The notes below the pieces were generated by a model. It saw only the letters and a program-made list of their open reading frames with translations, ran no database searches and had not been told where the DNA came from. Of a stretch of DNA of 39,874 bases, positions 15,346 through 36,715 are shown in pieces. Both the position numbers and the translations under genes were made by a program. The stretch is taken from the IMG/VR virus record IMGVR_UViG_3300030099_002745, positions 15,663 to 55,536 of that record. The stretch is one strand, 5' to 3'. The stretch is from a virus. The stretch's first letter is position 1. Each line of letters starts with the position of its first letter.

Positions 15346-16293
15346 TCATATCCACTCCATTATTGTTCTCTGTCTTGTATCTATTCCTATTTCATTTGTG
15401 TCCCAACCCATTGCAGTAAAGATTGGTTCTGCTTTCTTCTTCACCGTGTCAGCGTAGAACTTCCAATCTATCTTGTGTCTACCCATGTGTTCAATATCAT
15501 ACAGACTCTCACTGGATATGTAGGATGTCTGCTTCATATCCTTAGTGATAGGGTGTATGTATCTGCTAAACAATGCACCATTGACTCTAATGTAGAAGAA
15601 TGAATCCATAATTAGATTGTTATTGAACGTCTTACTACCATCGTACCCAGTTACACCATCGTTCTGATTGACTTGTTTTAGATAATTTTGATGAATTACT
15701 CCCTCTATTCCTTCTCTTATTGAGACTCTCTTTCCTGTTAGAGTCTTTAGGTTAGGACTCTCACAACAACCGAACGAAGAGGTAGTTACAAGAAAGTTAA
15801 CCTTTCTCTTACAGTTAGTGCATTTACATTCAAATCTCTCATCTTTGAATCTGCTTCTCTTGACTAGAGATTTGACTTCTATGTCATCAGAACCTGAGAG
15901 AACTTTAGTAAAGAGTTCATTCAGATACTCCACTATCTCTTCCTTCTCACAGTTTGCAACCCACATGTTTAGAACCTTTATCTGGACATCCTTTGCTAAT
16001 TGCGTTTCTGAGATTCTCTTCGCAGTAAAACCAGTCATAACAAATTCATCTTCTTCTAGGAACTCTCCGTCTTTCCATGAAACTAATCCAGCGTTTCTAT
16101 TCTTAGTAGAACCTACTCCCAGACTTTTGAAGTACTTCTCAAACTCAAGTTGAACGGGATGTTCATCCAATTCAAACACATTGGGAAATAACTTTTGTAC
16201 CTCTGAGTTAATCTTCTCACATACTTCCTGAGCATGCTCAACAGAATCTACTGTGCAATAGATTGAATCTGTGTGTCCGTATACTACTTTCAT
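15346..16293 (-). CDS. polB: DNA polymerase B, C-terminal half (motif C, thumb)
   Basis: A 315-residue polypeptide that completes the family B polymerase begun at 17200-18942. It starts at ATG 16293, behind GGAGAAGG and overlapping the previous stop, so motif C comes almost at once: Y5-G-H-T-D9-S. The canonical sequence is YGDTDS; here the first Asp is His while the catalytic second Asp is kept. Further on are KYFKSLGVGSTKNRNAG, GFTAKRISETQLAKDVQ (the KKxY/thumb region), a Cys-rich insert (CKCTNC...GCC) that could bind zinc, and the usual C-terminal helix DWKFYADTVKKKAEPIF. It must associate with the N-terminal half to be active. No intein or splice signal is present. Confidence 0.85.
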   Translation of the reverse strand: MKVVYGHTDSIYCTVDSVEHAQEVCEKINSEVQKLFPNVFELDEHPVQLEFEKYFKSLGVGSTKNRNAGLVSWKDGEFLEEDEFVMTGFTAKRISETQLAKDVQIKVLNMWVANCEKEEIVEYLNELFTKVLSGSDDIEVKSLVKRSRFKDERFECKCTNCKRKVNFLVTTSSFGCCESPNLKTLTGKRVSIREGIEGVIHQNYLKQVNQNDGVTGYDGSKTFNNNLIMDSFFYIRVNGALFSRYIHPITKDMKQTSYISSESLYDIEHMGRHKIDWKFYADTVKKKAEPIFTAMGWDTNEIGIDTRQRTIMEWI

Positions 16294-25746: not shown

Positions 25747-27330
25747 TCATATTGATGATTGAATCATTTCAATCGTATCTACCTCACTAGCGGCTTTATC
25801 ATCTCTAATTCTCATCAGTCTTGGGAACCTCAAACCCACAGAGCCATCTTGGTTTGTCGTGACTGCATCGCAAGTTACCTGCAATACTACTCTGGGTAAG
25901 AAGTGGTATACTGGATTGGTGTAAGCGGCTACAATTTTCTTCAAGGTTACAGTCAATGACATCAATTGCTTCTCAGAAAAGCCAGTGCCAACTGAACCAA
26001 CGGGAACATATCCACCGTTACCATCACTACATGAGATACCATAAGTCCCGAAGACATGCGCTCTCTTACCATCACCATATTCAGCACTGGTTACTACAAC
26101 ATCGAACTCAAACCTCGGTGGTTTGTGTTTCAATAAATTTGAACTACGCTTACCCATATCATAAGGTGCATCTAGATTCTTAATCATGATACCTTCAAAT
26201 CCCTTAGCAATAGCAATGTTGTATCCGGCATCAAGCGAATCTAATGATGTTGCTATGTAGGATTCAGGAACACATTCTGGTAAATCATCTAGTCTTTGTC
26301 TGTATGGTTGGTCAATTATCGTGTTTCCATTGCACATCAACATATCAAACACCACTAACCGAACAGGGCATTCTCTTATTGCTTCCTCTATGTTATTGGA
26401 GTGAACCCTCTTACCCATTCTTTGGTGTTCAACTGGATTGCCCTCTTCATCTACAGGATATATTTCACAATCTAGTATGGTTTTGGAAAGTAGTTTCCCC
26501 ATACTACCGTCTTCGTCTACGAACCCTCCCCACCATGTGTCCATGATATCAAGCACATCTTGGAACCTAGCGTTCTCAATAATTTTTCTTGCTCTATTGA
26601 AAATGATATAGTCTCCTTCCCCGATACAATGAATTAGATATCTGTTACCATCATACTTGATATCAAAGTGCATGTTATGGAACGGAATAGAACCGTTATA
26701 CTTCTTAGCCAACATAGGCTTGATTGGACTACCAATAGTTAGACCTTCTGGTGGTTCTCTCTTATCCTCCAATGCCTCTACAATCTTATGCAGTTCATTG
26801 AACTTAGACCAATTGGCTATCCTATCCTCAAAGTAGTGGTTCTGCAATGCCTTCTTCAAAACACCATTGGAACCTTTACCCAATCCGTTTCTAGGTGTTC
26901 TCAACCAATATCTAACGAACCATTTCAACTCAAGTCCTGACATGGTTCTCAATGCCTCTGAGATGATACGGTATGAATCGCCCTGCATGTTAGAGCAATC
27001 TAGATTCAACAACCTATGAAACTCATTTATGGTCATACCACAATCGGTATCTACAAAGGAACTGTAGTACATTGCCTGTCCCAAGTCTCCCCACTTTCTC
27101 TTAGTGGATGATATATCAGAAGCAACAACATCGAATGCTGATGCTAACCACTTGGTGGCTTTCACTTGTGCGATATTGTTCTGAGGTAACTCCAATGCTA
27201 GAATCTGCACTACTAGTTTCTTCTCATTCTTTTTGAAAGCAGACAATCCCTGATTAACAGTGAACTGTTTCACAGACGGTGATTGTTCCTCAAGAGTCTC
27301 ACACATCCTAGCAAACGTGGTCAATGTCAT
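25747..27330 (-). CDS. lig: ATP-dependent DNA ligase
   Basis: A 527-residue ligase that seals nicks between Okazaki fragments. The N-terminal ~200 residues are the helical DNA-binding domain. The nucleotidyltransferase motifs follow: motif I DIKYDGNR (adenylated K225), motif III ILDCEIYPVD, IIIa VVFDMLMCNG, motif IV FEGIMIKNLD and motif V LLKHKP. The OB domain ends with PRLMRIRDDKAASEVDT, close to archaeal and eukaryotic ligase I. Full length and intact. Start ATG 27330 overlaps the histone-fold gene stop. Confidence 0.95.
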   Translation of the reverse strand: MTLTTFARMCETLEEQSPSVKQFTVNQGLSAFKKNEKKLVVQILALELPQNNIAQVKATKWLASAFDVVASDISSTKRKWGDLGQAMYYSSFVDTDCGMTINEFHRLLNLDCSNMQGDSYRIISEALRTMSGLELKWFVRYWLRTPRNGLGKGSNGVLKKALQNHYFEDRIANWSKFNELHKIVEALEDKREPPEGLTIGSPIKPMLAKKYNGSIPFHNMHFDIKYDGNRYLIHCIGEGDYIIFNRARKIIENARFQDVLDIMDTWWGGFVDEDGSMGKLLSKTILDCEIYPVDEEGNPVEHQRMGKRVHSNNIEEAIRECPVRLVVFDMLMCNGNTIIDQPYRQRLDDLPECVPESYIATSLDSLDAGYNIAIAKGFEGIMIKNLDAPYDMGKRSSNLLKHKPPRFEFDVVVTSAEYGDGKRAHVFGTYGISCSDGNGGYVPVGSVGTGFSEKQLMSLTVTLKKIVAAYTNPVYHFLPRVVLQVTCDAVTTNQDGSVGLRFPRLMRIRDDKAASEVDTIEMIQSSI

Positions 27331-27554
27331 TCTTCTTTGCCTCCTTCCATGTTGACTATAGCGAGTAGAACATGACCATCAGTCACCTTTCTATCATCAC
27401 TTTCCTTGAAAACTTTAGCAGTTTCCTTACAAACTAAAGTAAGCATACCATCTGCATATTTTCTTAGTGCCTCATACGCACTATCGTTTACAAAAGTTCC
27501 AACATCTAATTCATTCTTCAATTTCTTTTTCATTTCTCTTATACTTATTGACAT
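27327..27554 (-). CDS. Histone-fold protein
   Basis: A 75-residue protein. Residues ~20-70 follow the histone fold: a short first helix/strap (DVGTFVNDSAYEALRKYA), a long central helix (DGMLTLVCKETAKVFKESDD), then the RKVTDGHVLLAI strand and helix that correspond to the RKTVxxxDIxxAI block of archaeal histones. The N-terminal ~15 residues are basic (IREMKKKLKNEL) and could be a tail. It may compact or mark viral DNA, or act as a TAF/NF-Y-like subunit of a transcription complex. Start ATG 27554 follows GGAGAG and overlaps the PC4-like gene by 44 bases. Confidence 0.68.
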   Translation of the reverse strand: MSISIREMKKKLKNELDVGTFVNDSAYEALRKYADGMLTLVCKETAKVFKESDDRKVTDGHVLLAIVNMEGGKEE

Positions 27555-27747
27555 TTTCAATTCTCTCCAATGCTTGGATTAGTGTCTCCAATTCTTGATG
27601 GTTAACTCTTATTCCTTTCTTCGTTGGTAGACCATCATTATACCATCGAATATCTATTATTGGAATGTTCCAATACTCACCCGTCTTAATTTGTATTTCC
27701 TGTGTAGCACTACGGGTTATTCTTGCTACAAGTTTTTCGTCTTTCAT
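27511..27747 (-). CDS. PC4/YdbC-like ssDNA-binding transcription cofactor
   Basis: A 78-residue protein with the PC4 core: VARITRSATQEIQIKTGEYW, then IIDIRWYNDGLPTKKGIRV (the vDIRxYy...G...PTkKGI signature), then HQELETLIQALERI (the closing helix). PC4 proteins bind single-stranded DNA and promoter-associated complexes. A Lys-rich C-terminus follows. It is translationally linked to a histone-fold gene, and TFB is in the same operon, so a viral transcription or replication cofactor is likely. ATG 27747 follows a GGGGATGATAGG stretch. Confidence 0.75.
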   Translation of the reverse strand: MKDEKLVARITRSATQEIQIKTGEYWNIPIIDIRWYNDGLPTKKGIRVNHQELETLIQALERIENVNKYKRNEKEIEE

Positions 27748-29275: not shown

Positions 29276-29571
29276 CCCCATACCTCCTTGTTGTGTTTCC
29301 TCATGTCTAGGATATACTTAGAGCAAGTAGGACAGAAGTTCTGAAACACACCCAATGTCTTGAGTTTATGCCAACCCTTATCCTCTAAGGTTCTCGCTAT
29401 CTCTCTACCATTCTGTTGATAGGACTGCCCTAGTTTTAGAGCAATTGTGATTTTTCTCTCACATAGCACCCTTGGTGAGTCCTTGTTTCTTCCCACAGAC
29501 TTTACCATCTTAGGGTATCCGGGGCATTCGCAGGTCAATTGTTGTTTAAATTGTCTTATTTTTTCTTTCAT
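29272..29571 (-). CDS. Small Cys-containing protein downstream of the JAMM gene
   Basis: A 99-residue basic protein with four main Cys (LTCECPGYPK near the N-terminus, RVLCERK mid-protein, FCPTCSKY near the C-terminus), compatible with one zinc site. Helical between them (ITIALKLGQSYQQNGREIAR). ATG 29571 overlaps the JAMM protease stop and has a GGAGGG ribosome-binding site. No family recognised. Its coupling to the JAMM gene makes it a possible partner. Confidence 0.62.
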   Translation of the reverse strand: MKEKIRQFKQQLTCECPGYPKMVKSVGRNKDSPRVLCERKITIALKLGQSYQQNGREIARTLEDKGWHKLKTLGVFQNFCPTCSKYILDMRKHNKEVWG

Positions 29572-30233
29572 AATTCTATTCCCTCCTTTGTCTGCTCGAC
29601 AGGAGTATTGTACATTTCTCGTTCTGGTCTTGGTGTGTTTTTATTCTCGTACCTTTTTCTTTGTTCAGTAATTGATTCTGGGAATTCCAGTGTACCGAAC
29701 TTAACTTGCTTAACGATACGACTCTTGATGTTGTACGCCCAATATTCGTTGTCACCTAATACAATAGCGGATTGCATTACAGGTTCAAAAGCCTTGATTG
29801 TCCTCCAATCTGTGCCACTGAAAAAGGCACTACCAGATGGGTGTGTGTGAATCCATGACTTAATGGGCAGTTTCAACCCAACTGGTGCATCCTTGAAGTC
29901 CACGAAACTAGGTGTTCCTACACTGATGAACAACCTGTCATTTGCTCCTACCACCACTTGTATCTCCCTTGGTTTCTCAAATGCCTGTGTTGACATATGC
30001 CATATCTCAGATAGGAATGTATTCTCAACATAGGTATCCGGGTTGTAGAAATTAGGTGTTATTCCCATTTTCAGTATTGACTCCCAAACTCTCCTAATCC
30101 TATCTTCCCATTCTGGTATCTTAGGATGGGCAATCGCATATGCCTCATCTACTAAGAATTCATCATAGGCATCATCTATTCTCTTTTCATCTCTTTCTGC
30201 ATTTTCAATTTGTTTATCACTCATTCTTCCCAT
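29568..30233 (-). CDS. JAMM/MPN+ metalloprotease
   Basis: A 221-residue protein with the JAB1/MPN/Mov34 zinc protease signature: IHTHPSGSAFFSGTD gives H129-x-H131-x7-S139-x2-D142. The catalytic Glu is expected ~50 residues before; E76 in FLSEIWHM is a candidate. After the motif, AIVLGDNEYWAYNI matches the following strand pair. The N-terminal ~45 residues are an extra charged helical segment. JAMM enzymes cut isopeptide or C-terminal extensions from ubiquitin-like proteins. An E1-like gene lies about 760 bp upstream in the same operon and a Ubl gene at 36255. Start ATG 30233 is eight bases after GGAGG. Confidence 0.85.
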   Translation of the reverse strand: MGRMSDKQIENAERDEKRIDDAYDEFLVDEAYAIAHPKIPEWEDRIRRVWESILKMGITPNFYNPDTYVENTFLSEIWHMSTQAFEKPREIQVVVGANDRLFISVGTPSFVDFKDAPVGLKLPIKSWIHTHPSGSAFFSGTDWRTIKAFEPVMQSAIVLGDNEYWAYNIKSRIVKQVKFGTLEFPESITEQRKRYENKNTPRPEREMYNTPVEQTKEGIEL

Positions 30234-30234
30234 T

Positions 30235-30480
30235 TTATTGTCCTCCCATTTGTATCATCATTACGTCTTGATTATTCTCAAACTCATGGAACGCCTGATG
30301 ACCCGCAATGAATCCTCCTGCGTGTCTCTTAGTTCCTATGAATTCCTCACCACATACTGGACAGTATACTTTCACTATTTCTGCTCGCTTGTACAATCCA
30401 TCTTGGCAAAGCAAGTCAATTATCTCATTGACATCTTCCTCACCTAACTGTTGGTCTTCTCTTATCTCGTCTTCACTCAT
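30235..30480 (-). CDS. C2H2-type zinc finger protein
   Basis: An 81-residue acidic protein starting at ATG 30480, after GGGTGA. An acidic N-terminal half is followed by one C2H2-like finger (YCPVCGEEFIGTKRHAGGF then HQAFHEFE). The protein ends QMGGQ. The two Gly codons are GGA GGA, i.e. they form the ribosome-binding site of the JAMM gene, so the di-glycine need not be functional. Possible DNA-binding regulator. Confidence 0.68.
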   Translation of the reverse strand: MSEDEIREDQQLGEEDVNEIIDLLCQDGLYKRAEIVKVYCPVCGEEFIGTKRHAGGFIAGHQAFHEFENNQDVMMIQMGGQ

Positions 30481-30997
30481 CAAAATCACCCATCAGTGCC
30501 TTTCTCAGTTGTAGTTCCCTGTAGTCTTTTGTTGCTCTTTCCATTTGCCATTCGGCGTACTTCTCTCTCCATTTCGTATCGAAGATATAGTCATGAGCAG
30601 TAATAAACAACTCCATTCTTTTAACTCTATTAAGAGAACCCACTAAACATCTCACTACAGAATGTCTGTCTGCTAGATATCCCGCAAACGGTTCATCACT
30701 AGATAATTGTCTAGCAATATATTCTGGACTCCAGAAATGTGCGTACTTTAGCAGTTGAGCCTCAGTCATATCTGGATATGTTCTCTCAAAGTGTTCAGCC
30801 TCTATGTCTCCTAACTTATCCATTAGCACTTCGTCTTGAGTAATCAAATCCATTACATCCAATGGAGGAAAAACTTTCTCAAAGAGAGAATCCCAATCTG
30901 TCTCTCCGCATATGGAACAGTTCTGCCAACCATCTCTGAAATCTCCGTTCTCATCACAATCAGTGTTCATACTTCCTCTTCCTAATTTGCATTTCAT
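30473..30997 (-). CDS. Hypothetical protein next to the E1-like gene (174 aa)
   Basis: A 174-residue protein with a short N-terminal Cys cluster (MNTDCDENGD, QNCSICGETDW) and a long helical body (LLKYAHFWSPEYIARQL, SVVRCLVGSLNRVKRMEL, KYAEWQMERATKDYRELQ). The body lacks any recognisable E2 fold or His-Pro-Asn signature. Leu/Arg pattern with LSSDEPFAGYLADRH may be HEAT-like. Translationally coupled to the E1-like gene (ATGA), so it may act with it as a substrate or adaptor (inference). Confidence 0.62.
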   Translation of the reverse strand: MKCKLGRGSMNTDCDENGDFRDGWQNCSICGETDWDSLFEKVFPPLDVMDLITQDEVLMDKLGDIEAEHFERTYPDMTEAQLLKYAHFWSPEYIARQLSSDEPFAGYLADRHSVVRCLVGSLNRVKRMELFITAHDYIFDTKWREKYAEWQMERATKDYRELQLRKALMGDFDE

Positions 30998-31569
30998 ATA
31001 TTCATCACCATCTTATCAATAACATCATCGTTGTCGTTGAACCACTTCTGAATCCATTGTGTTGCCGCACCTGCTATTGCTATGTGCATGGCATCAATTC
31101 CTTCTGCTTCTCCTTCCCAATCTGTACCTTGACAAGAGAAGGAACCATCCGGTCCTTCAAGCATCGAATCCATTAGAGTCGGGTCTGTCTTGTAGGATAT
31201 CAATGCCGCATTTCGCCCCTGTGAGCGCAAATCTAGCCACTTGTTTTCTATATCCTCACCATGACCCTCCTTGTACAACAAACGCCTTACTGCAAGGTTA
31301 TCCGCACAACAAACAACTAGGTCATAATTTGCCAGTTGTTCCTTCACTAATACGAAGTATGGTTCTCCTGTAACATTGGACGACTTTCTAACAATCGCAT
31401 CCACTTTCTTATCACCTACATCAATCAGACCGTAGTTCTGATACGTCAGGTTCTTGTTTTCCACAAGGTCATCATCATAGATTGTAATATCATACAACCC
31501 TATTCTATCTAGGAATGAAACTAGGAAACTCCCAATTCCTCCTGCACCAATTATCATTATTTTTCTCAT
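30994..31569 (-). CDS. E1-like ThiF/MoeB-family adenylyltransferase
   Basis: A 191-residue Rossmann-fold protein of the E1/ThiF/MoeB family, which adenylates the C-terminal glycine of ubiquitin-like proteins. Visible: GAGGIGS at 8-14, acidic ITIYDDDLVE (D34 region) after strand 2, NKNLTYQNYGLIDVGDKKVDAI (family: NLNRQ...DVGxxK; the Arg is Tyr here), CCADN at 87-91, and a C-terminal GSFSCQGTD with C146 as candidate catalytic or zinc Cys. Shorter than typical ThiF (~240 aa). ATG 31569 overlaps the TFB stop behind GGTGA. The JAMM protease is three genes downstream. Confidence 0.82.
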   Translation of the reverse strand: MRKIMIIGAGGIGSFLVSFLDRIGLYDITIYDDDLVENKNLTYQNYGLIDVGDKKVDAIVRKSSNVTGEPYFVLVKEQLANYDLVVCCADNLAVRRLLYKEGHGEDIENKWLDLRSQGRNAALISYKTDPTLMDSMLEGPDGSFSCQGTDWEGEAEGIDAMHIAIAGAATQWIQKWFNDNDDVIDKMVMNI

Positions 31570-32564
31570 TCTTTTTCACCTTTCTTTCTTTGTCTGTATG
31601 CTTCCGTTCTAATACCGGAAACGAAATCTTCGACTGTCAATTCAGACAAACATTGTTTGTCGAAGTCCAACGTAGGATACAATATGTTTCTCAATGCTCC
31701 ACGAATCGTCTGTTCAGTAGTGTTGTTCACTGAACATATGTCCCTTTGCAATAATCCTGCTTCTCTGATTTGGGATGCCATCCAAATTACAGTTGCATTT
31801 GTAGAGTTCTTGTAGGGTAAGTCCCTATCATCCAATTCCTTTGCCACGAAATCGGATAAGATATAGCAATCACCCCTTAGTTCTGGGTCAATCACGATAC
31901 CATTTGATTGTAGTAAATCTAGATGGTCGCCCATCATCTTAGTATTAGTAATCGCAGAGAAGATTTGTGGCGTAGCCATGTGCCTAGCAAACATTCTACC
32001 TAACTTTGAGAGTTTCTTCTTACTAATACCAGTTATCTTTGAGTGTCTAGTCAGACTAGTTAGGTTATCTTGCTTTAATATCAAGTACAATAGCACAGAT
32101 GCCCTAACCTCAACGGAATATCCCCTGAGTTTGTTCATCTCAGTTAGTCTCTTCTTCAATGACATCGTAGCATCAAGATACTTCTTGGCATTATCGAAAC
32201 TGTTCATACCATATTGATGGAGATGATTCTTCACCAAGACAATCATGTGTTTGTCCGTGCTAGACAGACCACCACGATAACTGCTAGACGCTCTGAGTTG
32301 CGTGTATGCCAATCTCTTAGACTTTGAATCACTAGGAATGATTGTAGAACCAAGTCCATCATTAGTCACAAACGCATTGGAACCATTACTCAATAGTCTC
32401 TGAGTGGTAAGAGTCTTCGTTATCGTATCCTCCTTAGCGTTAGATATCACACTGAACTCTTCTATTGGATTCCAAGAGAGAACTAACCCACATGAAACAC
32501 AACATGTCTCACCAAGCAACTCATTGTATTCTCTTTGAGTAGCATTGCATTCTGGACACTTCAT
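31566..32564 (-). CDS. tfb: Transcription factor B (TFIIB homologue)
   Basis: A 332-residue archaeal-type TFB that recruits RNA polymerase to TATA promoters, so the virus can reprogramme transcription. N-terminal zinc ribbon: MKCPECNATQ then CCVSCGLVL. B-reader/linker, then two cyclin-like repeats (KKYLDATMSLKKRLTEMNKL, SVEVRASVLLYLILKQDN; second repeat DRDLPYKNSTNATVIWMASQI, QRDICSVNNTTEQTIRGALRN). Start ATG 32564 overlaps the upstream stop (ATGA), after GGGGAAAAAG. Repeats are divergent from cellular TFB. Confidence 0.88.
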   Translation of the reverse strand: MKCPECNATQREYNELLGETCCVSCGLVLSWNPIEEFSVISNAKEDTITKTLTTQRLLSNGSNAFVTNDGLGSTIIPSDSKSKRLAYTQLRASSSYRGGLSSTDKHMIVLVKNHLHQYGMNSFDNAKKYLDATMSLKKRLTEMNKLRGYSVEVRASVLLYLILKQDNLTSLTRHSKITGISKKKLSKLGRMFARHMATPQIFSAITNTKMMGDHLDLLQSNGIVIDPELRGDCYILSDFVAKELDDRDLPYKNSTNATVIWMASQIREAGLLQRDICSVNNTTEQTIRGALRNILYPTLDFDKQCLSELTVEDFVSGIRTEAYRQRKKGEKE

Positions 32565-33865
32565 TTCTTTTTCCCCTTCCCTGATGTCCACTTAGCATAG
32601 GACTTCATGTTGATTCTATGTGACTTACCAGATAAAGCGTCTGATGGTATATATCCTCTCAGTGTACCTACCTTCTTCAATGCAAGCCTATCATTCATTA
32701 GAGTAAACACTCTTGATACGAATTGGTCGCCAAGACTTACATTGCCCACTGAGTTGTTCACACAAATGGGACCATGTAAATCACCATTCAAGAACTTCTT
32801 CTTGGCGATATTAGTTGTGGTCTTATCCACTCTCTCCGGGTCTTCATGGAAACAATAGATGCTAACTCTCTGTGGTGAAGTCTTAGCCGCCGCATTCTCA
32901 ATGAGAACCCAATCACACAGTTGACCACTGACTAGCATACCTAACTTCCTAGTTCCCTTGACAAACTTACCATCCTCCTGCTTCTTTCCAAAGTAGAATG
33001 TATTGATGTTATCATTCTCCCTAGCAACTTCCCACATCAATCCCTTAGCAGTATCCTCAATCATCTTATCAGTTCTGTTCTGTAGCATCCAAGCAACCAT
33101 CATCTTATGCTCACTGTCTGAGGGAATTTCACCAAACAGTTCCATCCATAGATTATGGGGATTGATATCCACCCATCTCTTTGACTGTCTCTTGTTTCTC
33201 CTATAGACATTCAAGAACTGGTCAAGTTCCTTGATACCAATCGAAGCCCAGATATTTTCTGATAACTCAATCGCACAATGCGTTTTGGATATCCTCCTTA
33301 CCGAAAGTCTGACCTCTACCTTGCTTCTCCTGTAAGGATTCGTTTTATTAGGCGGATAGAAGTAATACGGACACTTGTTCTCTATGGCATATCTAACATT
33401 CGGAGGAACCTCCATCAAAGACTGTATGTATGAATTCAGCACTATCGCACTATCACAGAAACAGGAACGATAGACTACTCTGGATAAGATACTCAACATC
33501 ACAGCCTTTGACAACTTCCTACCATTCAATGTGAACCCAGATTCCTTCAAACCCATGAGCATAACATTACCATCAGGATAACGATAAGTTAGCATAAACA
33601 TGAACTCGTCAAGTTTTACTTGACCATAACGGATAAACAGCATCTTGTCTAGAGTCTTAGACAGAGACTCAAACACAGGGTCTTCGTCTTTTGTCCCATA
33701 GGTATAGTTACCTCTCTCACTAGTTACAACTACTTCACCGTACTTATTTATGGAACCAACGCTATCGCTATCCTTTTGATTATGCTTCAAAAGAAAACTG
33801 GTTTGATTGTAGTTTGCGCTACCTGTTCCCGGTTGTCTTATTCTTATTTTTACCTTCATTTTCAT
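32561..33865 (-). CDS. Hypothetical protein (434 aa) upstream of TFB
   Basis: A 434-residue protein of unknown family. N-terminus basic (MKMKVKIRIRQPG). Several well-structured blocks: KMLFIRYGQVKLDEFMFMLT, CPYYFYPPNKTNPYRRSKVE, VRLSVRRISKTHCAIELSEN, and LCDWVLIENAAAKTSPQRVS. C-terminus basic (SYAKWTSGKGKKK). It follows RNR and a small basic protein and is coupled to TFB, so a transcription or nucleic-acid role is plausible but not shown. RBS AAGGAG before ATG 33865. Confidence 0.68.
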   Translation of the reverse strand: MKMKVKIRIRQPGTGSANYNQTSFLLKHNQKDSDSVGSINKYGEVVVTSERGNYTYGTKDEDPVFESLSKTLDKMLFIRYGQVKLDEFMFMLTYRYPDGNVMLMGLKESGFTLNGRKLSKAVMLSILSRVVYRSCFCDSAIVLNSYIQSLMEVPPNVRYAIENKCPYYFYPPNKTNPYRRSKVEVRLSVRRISKTHCAIELSENIWASIGIKELDQFLNVYRRNKRQSKRWVDINPHNLWMELFGEIPSDSEHKMMVAWMLQNRTDKMIEDTAKGLMWEVARENDNINTFYFGKKQEDGKFVKGTRKLGMLVSGQLCDWVLIENAAAKTSPQRVSIYCFHEDPERVDKTTTNIAKKKFLNGDLHGPICVNNSVGNVSLGDQFVSRVFTLMNDRLALKKVGTLRGYIPSDALSGKSHRINMKSYAKWTSGKGKKK

Positions 33866-34121
33866 TTCTCTCCTTATATTGTTTATATTCGTAAATATCT
33901 TTTAGTATCAAATTACTATGTCGGGGTCTATCATTCCCCTCTACTTCCTGCGAAGCCTTCCGCAGAATCGTTCGTATTCTCCCTTTAGCGTATCTCGTTG
34001 ACGTTGTGCTTTGTGCTAACATTCTGTAAGGACTAGTGACATCGCATCCTCCCATCTTAGCATACTCCATTACCTCATCCTTGATTTCAAGGAACTGTTG
34101 TCTGCTACCTGTCCAAGTCAT
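33819..34121 (-). CDS. Small basic protein (100 aa)
   Basis: A 100-residue basic protein beginning MTWTGSRQQFLEIKDEVMEY, with CDVTSPYRMLAQSTTSTRYA and an Arg/Lys-rich second half. It has a helical N-terminus and a disordered Lys/Asn-rich C-terminus that overlaps the next gene by 47 bases. ATG 34121 overlaps the nrdJ stop (ATGA). No family recognised. Confidence 0.6.
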   Translation of the reverse strand: MTWTGSRQQFLEIKDEVMEYAKMGGCDVTSPYRMLAQSTTSTRYAKGRIRTILRKASQEVEGNDRPRHSNLILKDIYEYKQYKERNENEGKNKNKTTGNR

Positions 34122-36025
34122 ATCTCACAAACCCCTCCTGCACACGCCAACTCACCCTGTAGATTGGTGTTATCCTCCATCTCCACTATCTCAGTCAGGT
34201 CTATCTTTTTCAAGTATCCCATGAACTTCTCATAGGTTTCCCTATCACACTCTTGGAACGGTGCTTGCTCATAGACTCCACCATCGAAAGGCAGAACTGA
34301 TAGCCCATTGTAGATATACCTGTTCTCCCAGAACCACTCTCTGCAAACGTCCCACTCATGTTCATCAATATACACAGTTGCGGATACGTTGTGGTCATTC
34401 ATCCCACTGATATGTCCGGGTTTCACCCATTCTTTGGAGAACTTAGCAATTCTCTCAAGTAATGACATTGCTGATTCATCTCTAGTGATTACATTACCAT
34501 CCGGTACGCATTGTGGTATGGAGAAGATTATCTGCTCGGAGTTCCAGTTATCATCCTCTACTAGTTCTGGTAGTTTTTCTGCTAGATACTGAGCCAAAGG
34601 CTCGTTCTTTAGGAGCCTGATTGTCCTTATGTAATACTCAGAATGCCAAGCATGAATACCAGATGATGTTCCCAAAACACAAGAAGTAGTCCCGGCAGGT
34701 TTCACACAAGTAAGTCTAGCGGCAGGGTTGATTCCCAATAGTTCCGCTACTTCTGTGTTCTCGTCTTTGCACACTTGTACTGCTTTTTCTAAATCTAGAT
34801 GAAGCACCTTATTGTTTGCAATGCCTGTCATTGACACACCTAAAAGTGCGTCTTTTTCTGTGGTAGTCCTCCAACTCTCACGTAAATAGTGGAAATCAGT
34901 GTAAGATGCTTGTAGTGTTCCAATAAAAGTAGCGTATTTTACTCTCTCTTCCAAATCCTCTTGGTTCTCAACATCACCTGCATTTACCTCAACTAAGTTA
35001 CAGAACTGGTGATTTCTTAGTGAAATTTCTGCACAAGGATTTGTTCCCCAATCCTTATCGTTGGAGAAATAGAAACCGGGTTCTCCACTCTTGTTCTCTC
35101 TGAGTTGTTGCCATAGATTGTCAAAGAACTCCTTTGTTACTCTGTGTCTCAGAAGAACTGCGGAATTGTTCGCTCTCATTCTGTGTGGATTAAGTTCTAG
35201 TTGACTTGGAGACTTAGCACTAATCATGCTTGCATCATCCGCACTGAATAGAGAAATCATTGCGGCTCTCCTTATCCCACCTGCTAGAACTGCATCTGCA
35301 ATGTGACATAGCATGTCATGAACCTCAATCGGTTGCATAGCATGATGCTCAGGCATGTCAAACAACATTCCCTCTATTATAGTCAGACAGTTTCTTAGTG
35401 GAGTTCTACCGGGCGCACGACCACCACTTGTTTTCAGCAATGCTCCCTTTGGTCTAATATCAGAATAGTCAAACTTGGGTGTGGTCTTTCTCTTTCCTGT
35501 ATAAGACTCAAACAGTACTCTTACTGCTTCTGCCCATCCTTCTATCGAATCACCAACCAAATGACGATAAGTCCTGTTTGGATTGGGTTTCCTGATTGTG
35601 GGTAGTTGACTCACATGATGATACTGAACGGAATAACCGACTCCAGTTCCACCTAACAGTAGGAACATTGTCTCTGAGAATGCCGCAATATCATCTATTG
35701 CCTGATATGCACAGTTGTAAATTCTATTTGGTGCTAGGAATATAGGAAACCCACCGAACTGCATTGACCGCATTGATGGGAGTATCTTCTTCGGTATGAT
35801 GAAGTTCTCATATGCATAATGTATCTTATCTCGCATCTCTGATTTTCTATCTGGTGTGAGATTTTTATCCTCAACCATCTTGAGATGCATTTCCATGTTC
35901 CTCATGCATATCTCTTCCCAAGTTTCTCTCCTATGCAGTTCTGGTACGAACTTCGCATATTTGTTGTTCACTATTACATCTGAAAATATTTTCTTTGCTT
36001 TATCTGTTTCTTGTTTACTTATCAT
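34118..36025 (-). CDS. nrdJ: Adenosylcobalamin-dependent (class II) ribonucleotide reductase
   Basis: A 635-residue enzyme that makes deoxyribonucleotides using vitamin B12 cofactor. It is of the monomeric, triphosphate reductase type (Lactobacillus leichmannii RTPR-like). Key residues: redox pair C105 (NCAYQA) and C342 (FCNLVEVN); active-site N329, C331 and E333 in NPCAEI, with the same spacing as N406/C408/E410 and C419 of the Lactobacillus enzyme; GGTGVGYSVQ loop; C-terminal CAGGVC (C628, C633) that regenerates the active site. It heads the large operon behind a TATA-like box and AGGTGA. B12 dependence implies a host that makes or imports cobalamin. Confidence 0.93.
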   Translation of the reverse strand: MISKQETDKAKKIFSDVIVNNKYAKFVPELHRRETWEEICMRNMEMHLKMVEDKNLTPDRKSEMRDKIHYAYENFIIPKKILPSMRSMQFGGFPIFLAPNRIYNCAYQAIDDIAAFSETMFLLLGGTGVGYSVQYHHVSQLPTIRKPNPNRTYRHLVGDSIEGWAEAVRVLFESYTGKRKTTPKFDYSDIRPKGALLKTSGGRAPGRTPLRNCLTIIEGMLFDMPEHHAMQPIEVHDMLCHIADAVLAGGIRRAAMISLFSADDASMISAKSPSQLELNPHRMRANNSAVLLRHRVTKEFFDNLWQQLRENKSGEPGFYFSNDKDWGTNPCAEISLRNHQFCNLVEVNAGDVENQEDLEERVKYATFIGTLQASYTDFHYLRESWRTTTEKDALLGVSMTGIANNKVLHLDLEKAVQVCKDENTEVAELLGINPAARLTCVKPAGTTSCVLGTSSGIHAWHSEYYIRTIRLLKNEPLAQYLAEKLPELVEDDNWNSEQIIFSIPQCVPDGNVITRDESAMSLLERIAKFSKEWVKPGHISGMNDHNVSATVYIDEHEWDVCREWFWENRYIYNGLSVLPFDGGVYEQAPFQECDRETYEKFMGYLKKIDLTEIVEMEDNTNLQGELACAGGVCEI

Positions 36026-36066
36026 AAAATCACCTAAAGTGTAAGTTAGGTATCAATAATTTATGA
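36026..36066 (-). promoter_or_regulatory. Promoter and RBS of the large replication operon
   Basis: On the - strand, CATAAATTATTG (36055-36066) gives a TATA-like core about 25 bases upstream of a predicted start near 36032. A very short leader with AGGTGA (36031-36036) precedes ATG 36025. The TATA-like core lies between the arms of the inverted repeat at 36048-36071, so a bound factor there could repress transcription. A second TATA-like sequence, GAATATAAAC, lies further upstream near 36149-36158. Confidence 0.5.
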
Positions 36067-36186
36067 CACCTTTTTGGCCCTCAATTTGAGGGTATTTTGG
36101 GACAGTCAGACTATCCCATATAATCATCCCGATTGATGAAGAACTATGTTTATATTCGATGAGATAATATCTCAAAAATCGAATAT
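36048..36186. repeat. Cluster of four distinct inverted repeats upstream of nrdJ
   Basis: In 140 bp there are: AGGTATCA/TGACACCT at 36048-36071 (one mismatch in the arms); CCCTCAA-T-TTGAGGG at 36078-36092 (perfect); GGGACAGTC/GACTATCCC-type imperfect palindrome at 36099-36117; and a nested element at 36152-36186 in which ATATTCGA/TCGAATAT encloses the perfect palindrome TGAGATA-A-TATCTCA. No gene lies in this stretch. They could be operators for virus or host regulators, RNA structures in a leader, or part of a replication origin. Confidence 0.65.
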
Positions 36187-36195
36187 CTTGAGAAT

Positions 36196-36227
36196 AAAAA
36201 ATCAGAGGCAGGGGAGATTCCTCCCCT
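36196..36227 (-). terminator. Hairpin/T-tract terminator after the ubiquitin-like gene
   Basis: In the - strand transcript AGGGGAG pairs with CTCCCCT around a GAAU loop (36210-36227), followed by GCCTCTGA and six T (36201-36196). It separates the right-hand transcription unit from the nrdJ-led operon. Confidence 0.65.
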
Positions 36228-36254
36228 ACCCCCTTACGTCATACTTTGTTCGTT

Positions 36255-36455
36255 TCAAAGACCGCCAACGACTGCCGGAGTCAGAGTAACCTGAGATACT
36301 TCATCCCAATTGGTTTCTCCAATATTCTCACGACTAACCATTTCGCCGTCAATGAATAGCCAGTGAGTTGGGTGGTCTAGTATTTGCTCTACCATTCCCT
36401 CACTATCTAGTTCAAGACTTGTGTGTCCCGATTCATTTAATATTGTCAATTTCAC
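36255..36455 (-). CDS. Ubiquitin-like beta-grasp protein ending in Gly-Gly-Leu
   Basis: A 66-residue protein of ThiS/MoaD/Urm1 size. Predicted order fits a beta-grasp: strands MKLTILNES and HTSLELDS, helix EGMVEQILDHP, strand WLFIDGEMVSRENI (the vavNGelVpr position of ThiS/MoaD), and WDEVSQVTLTPAVVGGL (the GDxVxiippvaGG position). The C-terminus is GG plus one Leu, as in ubiquitin-like precursors that are trimmed before activation. Start is GTG 36455, nine bases after GGAGG, overlapping the previous stop (GTGA). The codons are GGC GGT CTT and no gene follows for 230 bases, so the di-glycine is not a by-product of a ribosome-binding site. E1-like and JAMM genes lie at 30994 and 29568. Confidence 0.72.
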   Translation of the reverse strand: MKLTILNESGHTSLELDSEGMVEQILDHPTHWLFIDGEMVSRENIGETNWDEVSQVTLTPAVVGGL

Positions 36456-36715
36456 GCCATTTCACCTCCTTGTTGTGCTTGTTGTTGTAGTTGTGCAATA
36501 ATGTTGTCCTTATCAGACAGTCTCCTACTCATCACCGCAATGGTCCTCTCATACTGTGCCAAAGCACCGAGATTCTCATTCAGTTGATTAGCAAGATTCT
36601 GTGCAGTCTGCATAGCGTTTGCGTTTCTCTCTGTCAACACTCCCAAATCAGTCTGCAACTGTTGCACTAACTCTTCCATTTCTTTCATTGTCTTCTTCTT
36701 TTCTTTTTCACTCAT
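36452..36715 (-). CDS. Coiled-coil protein coupled to the ubiquitin-like gene
   Basis: An 87-residue helical protein with clear heptads (MKEMEELVQQLQTDLGVL, AQNLANQLNENLGALAQYE, DKDNIIAQLQQQAQ). It ends QGGEMA, where GGA GGT GAA is the ribosome-binding site of the ubiquitin-like gene. The ATG overlaps the previous gene by eight bases. Function unknown; as the immediate neighbour it is a candidate partner or substrate of the Ubl. Confidence 0.65.
   Translation of the reverse strand: MSEKEKKKTMKEMEELVQQLQTDLGVLTERNANAMQTAQNLANQLNENLGALAQYERTIAVMSRRLSDKDNIIAQLQQQAQQGGEMA

Follow-up and report, generated by a model that had tools for sequence, protein, structure and literature searches.

A probable ubiquitin-like conjugation module encoded by magroviruses

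Does a virus of marine archaea carry the machinery to tag proteins with a ubiquitin-like modifier of its own? The question is raised by 39,874 nucleotides of viral DNA (the window; positions 15,663 to 55,536 of the 55.5-kb IMG/VR virus record IMGVR_UViG_3300030099_002745). There an initial annotation had proposed a small beta-grasp-type ubiquitin-like protein (Ubl) ending VVGGL, whose tail would need trimming, a ThiF/E1-type enzyme and a JAMM protease with an intact core. It saw no E2 or E3, and left open an E1-only, sampylation-like scheme or a role in sulfur transfer. The analysis described here makes a virus-encoded E1-E2-Ubl-JAMM conjugation module, common to magroviruses, the probable answer, with an E2-like protein added to the three components first noticed. 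The four genes are (aa, amino acids):

36255-36455, minus strand: Ubl precursor, 66 aa, GTG start, ends VVGG-L, predicted mature end Gly65; beta-grasp model, GG in 44/44
32561-33865, minus strand: E2-like protein, 434 aa, predicted UBC-like domain at about residues 264-421 (about 32603-33076), invariant Cys368
30994-31569, minus strand: E1-like adenylating enzyme, 191 aa, candidate catalytic Cys146 (SFSCQ), Pfam ThiF 5e-16
29568-30233, minus strand: JAMM metalloprotease, 221 aa, with E90, H129-T-H131, S139 and D142 invariant

Magroviruses are tailed viruses associated with marine group II (MGII) archaea (PMC10768690). TFB and ribonucleotide reductase (RNR) were identified in the window by profile, PolB, RFC, the clamp (PCNA) and ligase were judged by eye from the open reading frames (ORFs), and relatives of the window reach 90-103 kb; this gene set, its replication genes read by eye, and the size of the relatives are consistent with a magrovirus.

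The Ubl, E1 and JAMM ORFs, all on the minus strand, were confirmed at the same coordinates as first annotated. Scans of IMG/VR with each of the three yielded 64 loci, a few of which overlap on one contig, and profile searches found all three genes in 53 of them; the available DNA of the remaining 11 stops near the absent gene, and whole-record searches recovered the missing genes for L045, L060 and L013. A second, profile-based scan gave 362 viral E1 relatives, and among 54 added loci all four genes occur together in 37, the other 17 stopping short upstream. The Ubl is present in every one of 14 related records of 55-103 kb. Median ratios of nonsynonymous to synonymous substitution (dN/dS; 12-37 pairs each) are 0.12 for the Ubl, 0.12 for the E2-like protein, 0.14 for E1 and 0.09 for JAMM; the Ubl, E1 and JAMM are real genes under purifying selection.

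The AlphaFold2 model of the Ubl (predicted local distance difference test, pLDDT, 87.6) has the order beta-beta-alpha-beta-beta-alpha-beta and a loose tail. Its leading Foldseek matches are ubiquitin and NEDD8 (best E 1.7e-3, probability 0.99), and VIA-align returned MoaD, SAMP2, a bacterial Ubl, TtuB, ThiS and ubiquitin (Z 4.7-5.9); these scores are modest, as 66 residues would give, and nearly all leading rows are beta-grasp proteins. Searched alone, the window Ubl had no useful match in Pfam, PHROGs, NCBIfam or PADLOC, and PDB sequence searches with the Ubl profile returned nothing useful; 4 of 37 homologues weakly match Pfam ThiS (best 8e-4). Among 44 distinct homologues, which share 44-68% identity with the window Ubl, near-copies apart, the C-terminal GG is invariant (44/44) and is followed by zero to three variable residues (none, L, C, Y, V, F, NQ, SQ, SL, CY, HY, IR, IN, GNQ and others). 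Across all ORFs a GG end occurs in 139 of 5265 (2.6%, an upper limit, since the GG families are themselves counted), so the GG end of the Ubl is not due to chance. An invariant GG with a variable tail would fit a precursor trimmed at the GG.

Beyond its ThiF match, the E1 retains the residues of adenylation: GAGGIGS (the Ala nearly so), D32/D34, N40, Q44, K55, D90 and Cys146 are invariant across 41-51 rows. The candidate catalytic residue is Cys146, which is present in 51/51 and falls in the same alignment column as the Cys of bacterial ThiF/MoeB-type proteins. The E1 also matches NCBIfam PRTRC_ThiF at 1e-11, a score far below the cut-off of that family. In the JAMM protein, the core HTHPSGSAFFSGTD, of the form HTH-x7-S-x2-D, is intact, and E90, H129, H131, S139 and D142 are invariant in 43 rows; the best PDB matches of its profile are AMSH-LP, AMSH and an Rpn11-like protein (leading ones 6e-6 to 2e-4), which are deubiquitinases.

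The 434-aa gene lies two genes upstream of E1, in one string of overlapping genes, and is found in 58/64 loci. Its product has one invariant Cys (50/50; Cys368 in the window), within the motif (G)PICxxN...SxGDQ. In the structural model (pLDDT 81, predicted template modelling score 0.60) the C-terminus comprises a helix, four strands, a hairpin, Cys368 and a helix (378-390), and in a second look with VIA-align 46 of the 50 best rows were E2, UEV or RWD domains, nearly all over residues 264-421. Taken alone, these structure matches are suggestive of a UBC-like C-terminal domain. The candidacy of this protein as an E2 is independently supported, because it is homologous to an E2-like gene standing beside Ubl, E1 and JAMM genes in the presumed hosts: a profile of five host E2-like proteins matches it at E 1.6e-6, with the Cys aligned. 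The virus-encoded Ubl, E1 and JAMM module of the initial annotation, with a tail to be removed, is supported by the beta-grasp fold, the invariant GG and variable tail, the invariant catalytic residues and the near-universal co-occurrence of the genes; the absence of an E2, and with it the E1-only scheme, is not supported.

On the host side, Ubl and E1 genes are adjacent in Poseidoniales-type loci L084, L085, L096 and L111, JAMM comes next in L084, L085 and L096, and an E2-like gene lies just upstream of the Ubl and E1 in the three loci read for it (L084, L096, L111). The L084 proteins are homologous to the viral ones (Ubl 5e-13, E1 1.7e-26, JAMM 4e-16), and about half of the 194 genomes sampled from the host order have a short E1 of the viral family (E about 1e-15 or better). 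Neighbours of the host operon include an aminotransferase, an acetyltransferase and an enolase, and such neighbours suggest that the E2-Ubl-E1-JAMM operon is chromosomal. In the E1 tree, virus (99/91), MGII (99/88) and Methanosarcinales-type rows fall on one side (100/98), with bacterial and phage E1s apart; the root was placed at the midpoint, and the tree gives no direction of transfer. The closest relatives of the viral module appear to reside in the chromosomes of presumed host archaea.

Some hosts encode two Ubl units in one ORF, as in L206 (...PGLVGGKDAP...PGLVGGRFC), and the tandem precursor of L205 has a version ending ...AGQ. Both precursors (L206 1282-1716 and L205 1285-1803, minus strand) lie close to a small gene whose zinc-ribbon product resembles a subunit of RNA polymerase. 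On one Thalassarchaeum contig (L111 1-8205) an E1 is accompanied by three E2-like genes and by two Ubl-like regions, one of which has a stop within the match. Methanosarcinales/Methanoperedens contigs L083, L086 and L097 carry a related short E1 with a YSCQ motif, which in L083 and L097 adjoins a 712-741-aa protein without an assigned type.

Together, a tag, an E1, an E2-like protein and a JAMM protease with relatives in the presumed hosts make it probable that these viruses, while infecting a cell, tag proteins with a ubiquitin-like modifier of their own. The steps, which we infer from features of sequence and fold, would begin with JAMM removing the short tail past the Gly-Gly of the Ubl, a single Leu in the window virus. 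E1 with ATP would then adenylate the exposed Gly65 carboxylate and hold the Ubl as a thioester on Cys146, from which Cys368 of the E2-like protein would accept it and pass it to amino groups of target proteins; no separate E3 was seen. The same JAMM would reverse the conjugates. As the module genes are grouped with replication, RNR, TFB and ligase genes rather than with tail genes, the proteins targeted, whether of host or virus, probably belong to the takeover or replication phase.

Several observations weigh against conjugation by such a cascade. The E2 assignment rests on a model with weak structural scores: VIA-align Z values are just 4.0-5.2, Foldseek gave E2 rows only at probability 0.35 or below and E above 0.1, no E2 family was found in Pfam or NCBIfam and no sequence match in PDB, and no HPN motif was recognised in the protein. 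The E1 lacks a separate Cys domain, and the Arg of the NLxRQ motif is absent (NLTYQ in the window, Tyr in 49/51). Three Ubl homologues end exactly at GG and would need no trimming. Past residue 5 the Ubl shows 9 lysines where 185 would be expected, but host MoaD-type proteins are likewise lysine-poor (2.1%, with a few wrong-frame ORFs in the count), and lysine depletion was dropped as proof of conjugation because these carriers partly share it; it would fit an activated C-terminus and does not discriminate conjugation from sulfur transfer. Lastly, the Ubl lies in a transcription unit separate from the enzymes: the terminator first noted between them corresponds to a hairpin directly past the Ubl stop, and the Ubl probably shares its unit with a short gene that overlaps its start.

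36204-36233, minus strand: terminator-like hairpin, 13 pairs, T-rich tail, directly past the Ubl stop; consensus scan only
36452-36715, minus strand: coiled-coil-like protein, 87 aa, 4-base overlap with the Ubl start, homologues in 27/64 loci

Sulfur transfer is the other chemistry open to such a protein set. JAMM would expose the GG, E1 would adenylate it, and a host or viral sulfurtransferase would form a thiocarboxylate for tRNA thiolation or a modified nucleotide; QbsE/QbsD/QbsC, TtuB and CysO/Mec+ are precedents. The beta-grasp fold of the Ubl also resembles MoaD, ThiS and TtuB, the E1 resembles ThiF, MoeB and UbaA, and the C and CY tails of some Ubl homologues presumably recall the QbsE type. 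However, sulfur systems do not need an E2-like protein, which here is conserved with its one invariant Cys, the JAMM best matches deubiquitinases, and a search of the 14 records of 55-103 kb for rhodanese and ATP_bind_3 (TtuA-type) genes, which did not extend to MoaE and other acceptors, found none. The conserved E2-like protein and the lack of a rhodanese or TtuA-type gene in those records make sulfur transfer less likely, and we consider it unlikely, even allowing that a host partner could serve.

A different proposal concerns the host's homologous operon: the viral JAMM would strip host Ubl from viral proteins, while the viral Ubl, E1 and E2 compete as decoys with the host cascade. A comparable role has been suggested for the JAMM proteases of Borgs, which are JAMM deSAMPylases (PMC12660748). 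The short E1 in about half of the sampled host-order genomes, the compact E2-Ubl-E1-JAMM operons there and the grouping of viral with host archaeal E1s would all suit counter-defence. The operon is nevertheless absent from some sampled hosts, and the viral writing enzymes keep all their catalytic residues under purifying selection, which a mere decoy would not need. As a substitute for conjugation the proposal is quite unlikely; it is plausible if taken not as a competing chemistry but as the use to which a functioning cascade is put. Very unlikely is a role in virion assembly, in which the Ubl would decorate or process structural proteins after the manner of the lambda tail I/K Ubl-JAB pair, for although Ubl and JAB are established in phage tail modules (PMC1779556), the genes here are grouped with those for replication, among them RNR, TFB and ligase, and an E1 and a candidate E2 are present.

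Three further genes lie within the E2-E1-JAMM string:

31566-32591, minus strand: TFB-like transcription factor, present in 58/64 loci, TFIIB zinc ribbon (Pfam 3.8e-7); lies between E1 and the E2-like gene
30473-30997, minus strand: 174-aa protein without family match; 2/64 loci
30235-30489, minus strand: C2H2-type zinc-finger protein, 84 aa, ends MGG-Q, between E1 and JAMM

The zinc-finger protein is a second GG-ending product of the locus: in 36 of 39 distinct homologues just one further residue, of varying identity (I, Q, A, T, V, L, P or E), follows the GG, a rate that no other tested family approaches except the Ubl. Judged from these tails, it may be a second substrate of JAMM and E1. 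A tentative and rather doubtful extension of the conjugation module is that magroviruses possess a full E1-E2-Ubl-JAMM system, related to the undescribed Poseidoniales one, and that this system serves two modifiers: besides the beta-grasp Ubl, the zinc-finger protein would be matured at its own GG tail and undergo activation by that E1.

With a TFB-like gene in the string, the module's expression may be tied to how the virus controls transcription. The 174-aa protein is probably lineage-specific and not a core part, and it was ruled out as an E2 or E3, being present in just two loci. Elsewhere in the window, a 77-aa protein (27327-27560, minus strand; 7/64 loci) has a histone-fold look by eye, and a PC4-like protein (27511-27747, minus strand; Pfam 9.6e-6) occurs in 48/64 loci.

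In prokaryotes, Ubl conjugation has mostly been described as part of host physiology or of defence against viruses. If the present reading is true, the roles would be reversed in a major group of viruses of marine archaea: a full cascade would be near-universal there, and it is the virus that would tag proteins. The homologous operons and tandem Ubl precursors in the presumed host order offer concrete host-virus pairs for study, and the module also matters for tracing eukaryotic ubiquitin signalling to its archaeal roots. The open literature searched held no report of the magrovirus module or of the Poseidoniales operon; primary magrovirus literature was covered in part, and a prior mention is possible.

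SAMP modifiers end at GG. Sampylation (SAMP/UbaA/HvJAMM1) is archaeal and, like the viral module, combines a beta-grasp GG modifier, a ThiF-type E1 and a JAMM desampylase, but it works without an E2 (PMC11354881), whereas the virus has an E2-like protein and a tail past the GG. The bacterial antiphage Bil system, a cluster of four genes (BilABCD), shares a JAMM-processed Ubl, an E1 and an E2 (PMC11354881); BilA, however, has two Ubl domains, BilD an inactive domain plus a Cys domain, and the Bil E1 is pseudodimeric, in contrast to the single-domain 66-aa Ubl and 191-aa E1 of the virus, and Bil is host defence, whereas the module here is virus-encoded. The Ub operon of Caldiarchaeum subterraneum has the same set of Ub, E1, E2 and JAMM, but adds a RING E3, and its E1 has a separate Cys domain (PMC11354881); neither was seen in the virus.

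Clusters of E1, E2, JAB and Ubl have been predicted in bacteria, and Ubl-JAB pairs are known from lambda tails (PMC1779556). The lambda pair, tail proteins I (Ubl) and K (JAB), is likewise a virus-encoded Ubl and JAMM, but it belongs to a tail module without E1 or E2. The PRTRC cassette and the phage E1-JAMM loci of crAss-like cr106_1 (L066 4222-6654), Flavobacterium phage Fpv3 (L067 1607-5618) and Xanthomonas phage PhiXhv-12 (L068 739-4615) share a ThiF-type E1, with JAMM-like neighbours in the first two of these phages, and the viral JAMM profile matches the JAMM of cr106_1 (2e-5) and Fpv3 (6e-4); the E1s of this type nevertheless form a clade separate from that of magroviruses. E2-like genes in these phages, and Ubl-like (SGG) genes in Fpv3 and PhiXhv-12, were recognised by eye only, and a profile comparison of the E2-like protein with a large Xanthomonas-phage protein gave no match. 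The Poseidoniales operon resembles the viral module in its homologous Ubl, E1, JAMM and E2-like protein, its Ubl tail of VGG plus one residue, and the Cys in its SxSCQ and ICI motifs. It differs in that the host genes are compact, with tandem Ubl precursors in some hosts and an N-terminal CxxC...CxxC stretch in the host E2-like proteins, whereas in the virus the genes are spread out, a TFB gene and a GG-tailed zinc finger being inserted among them.

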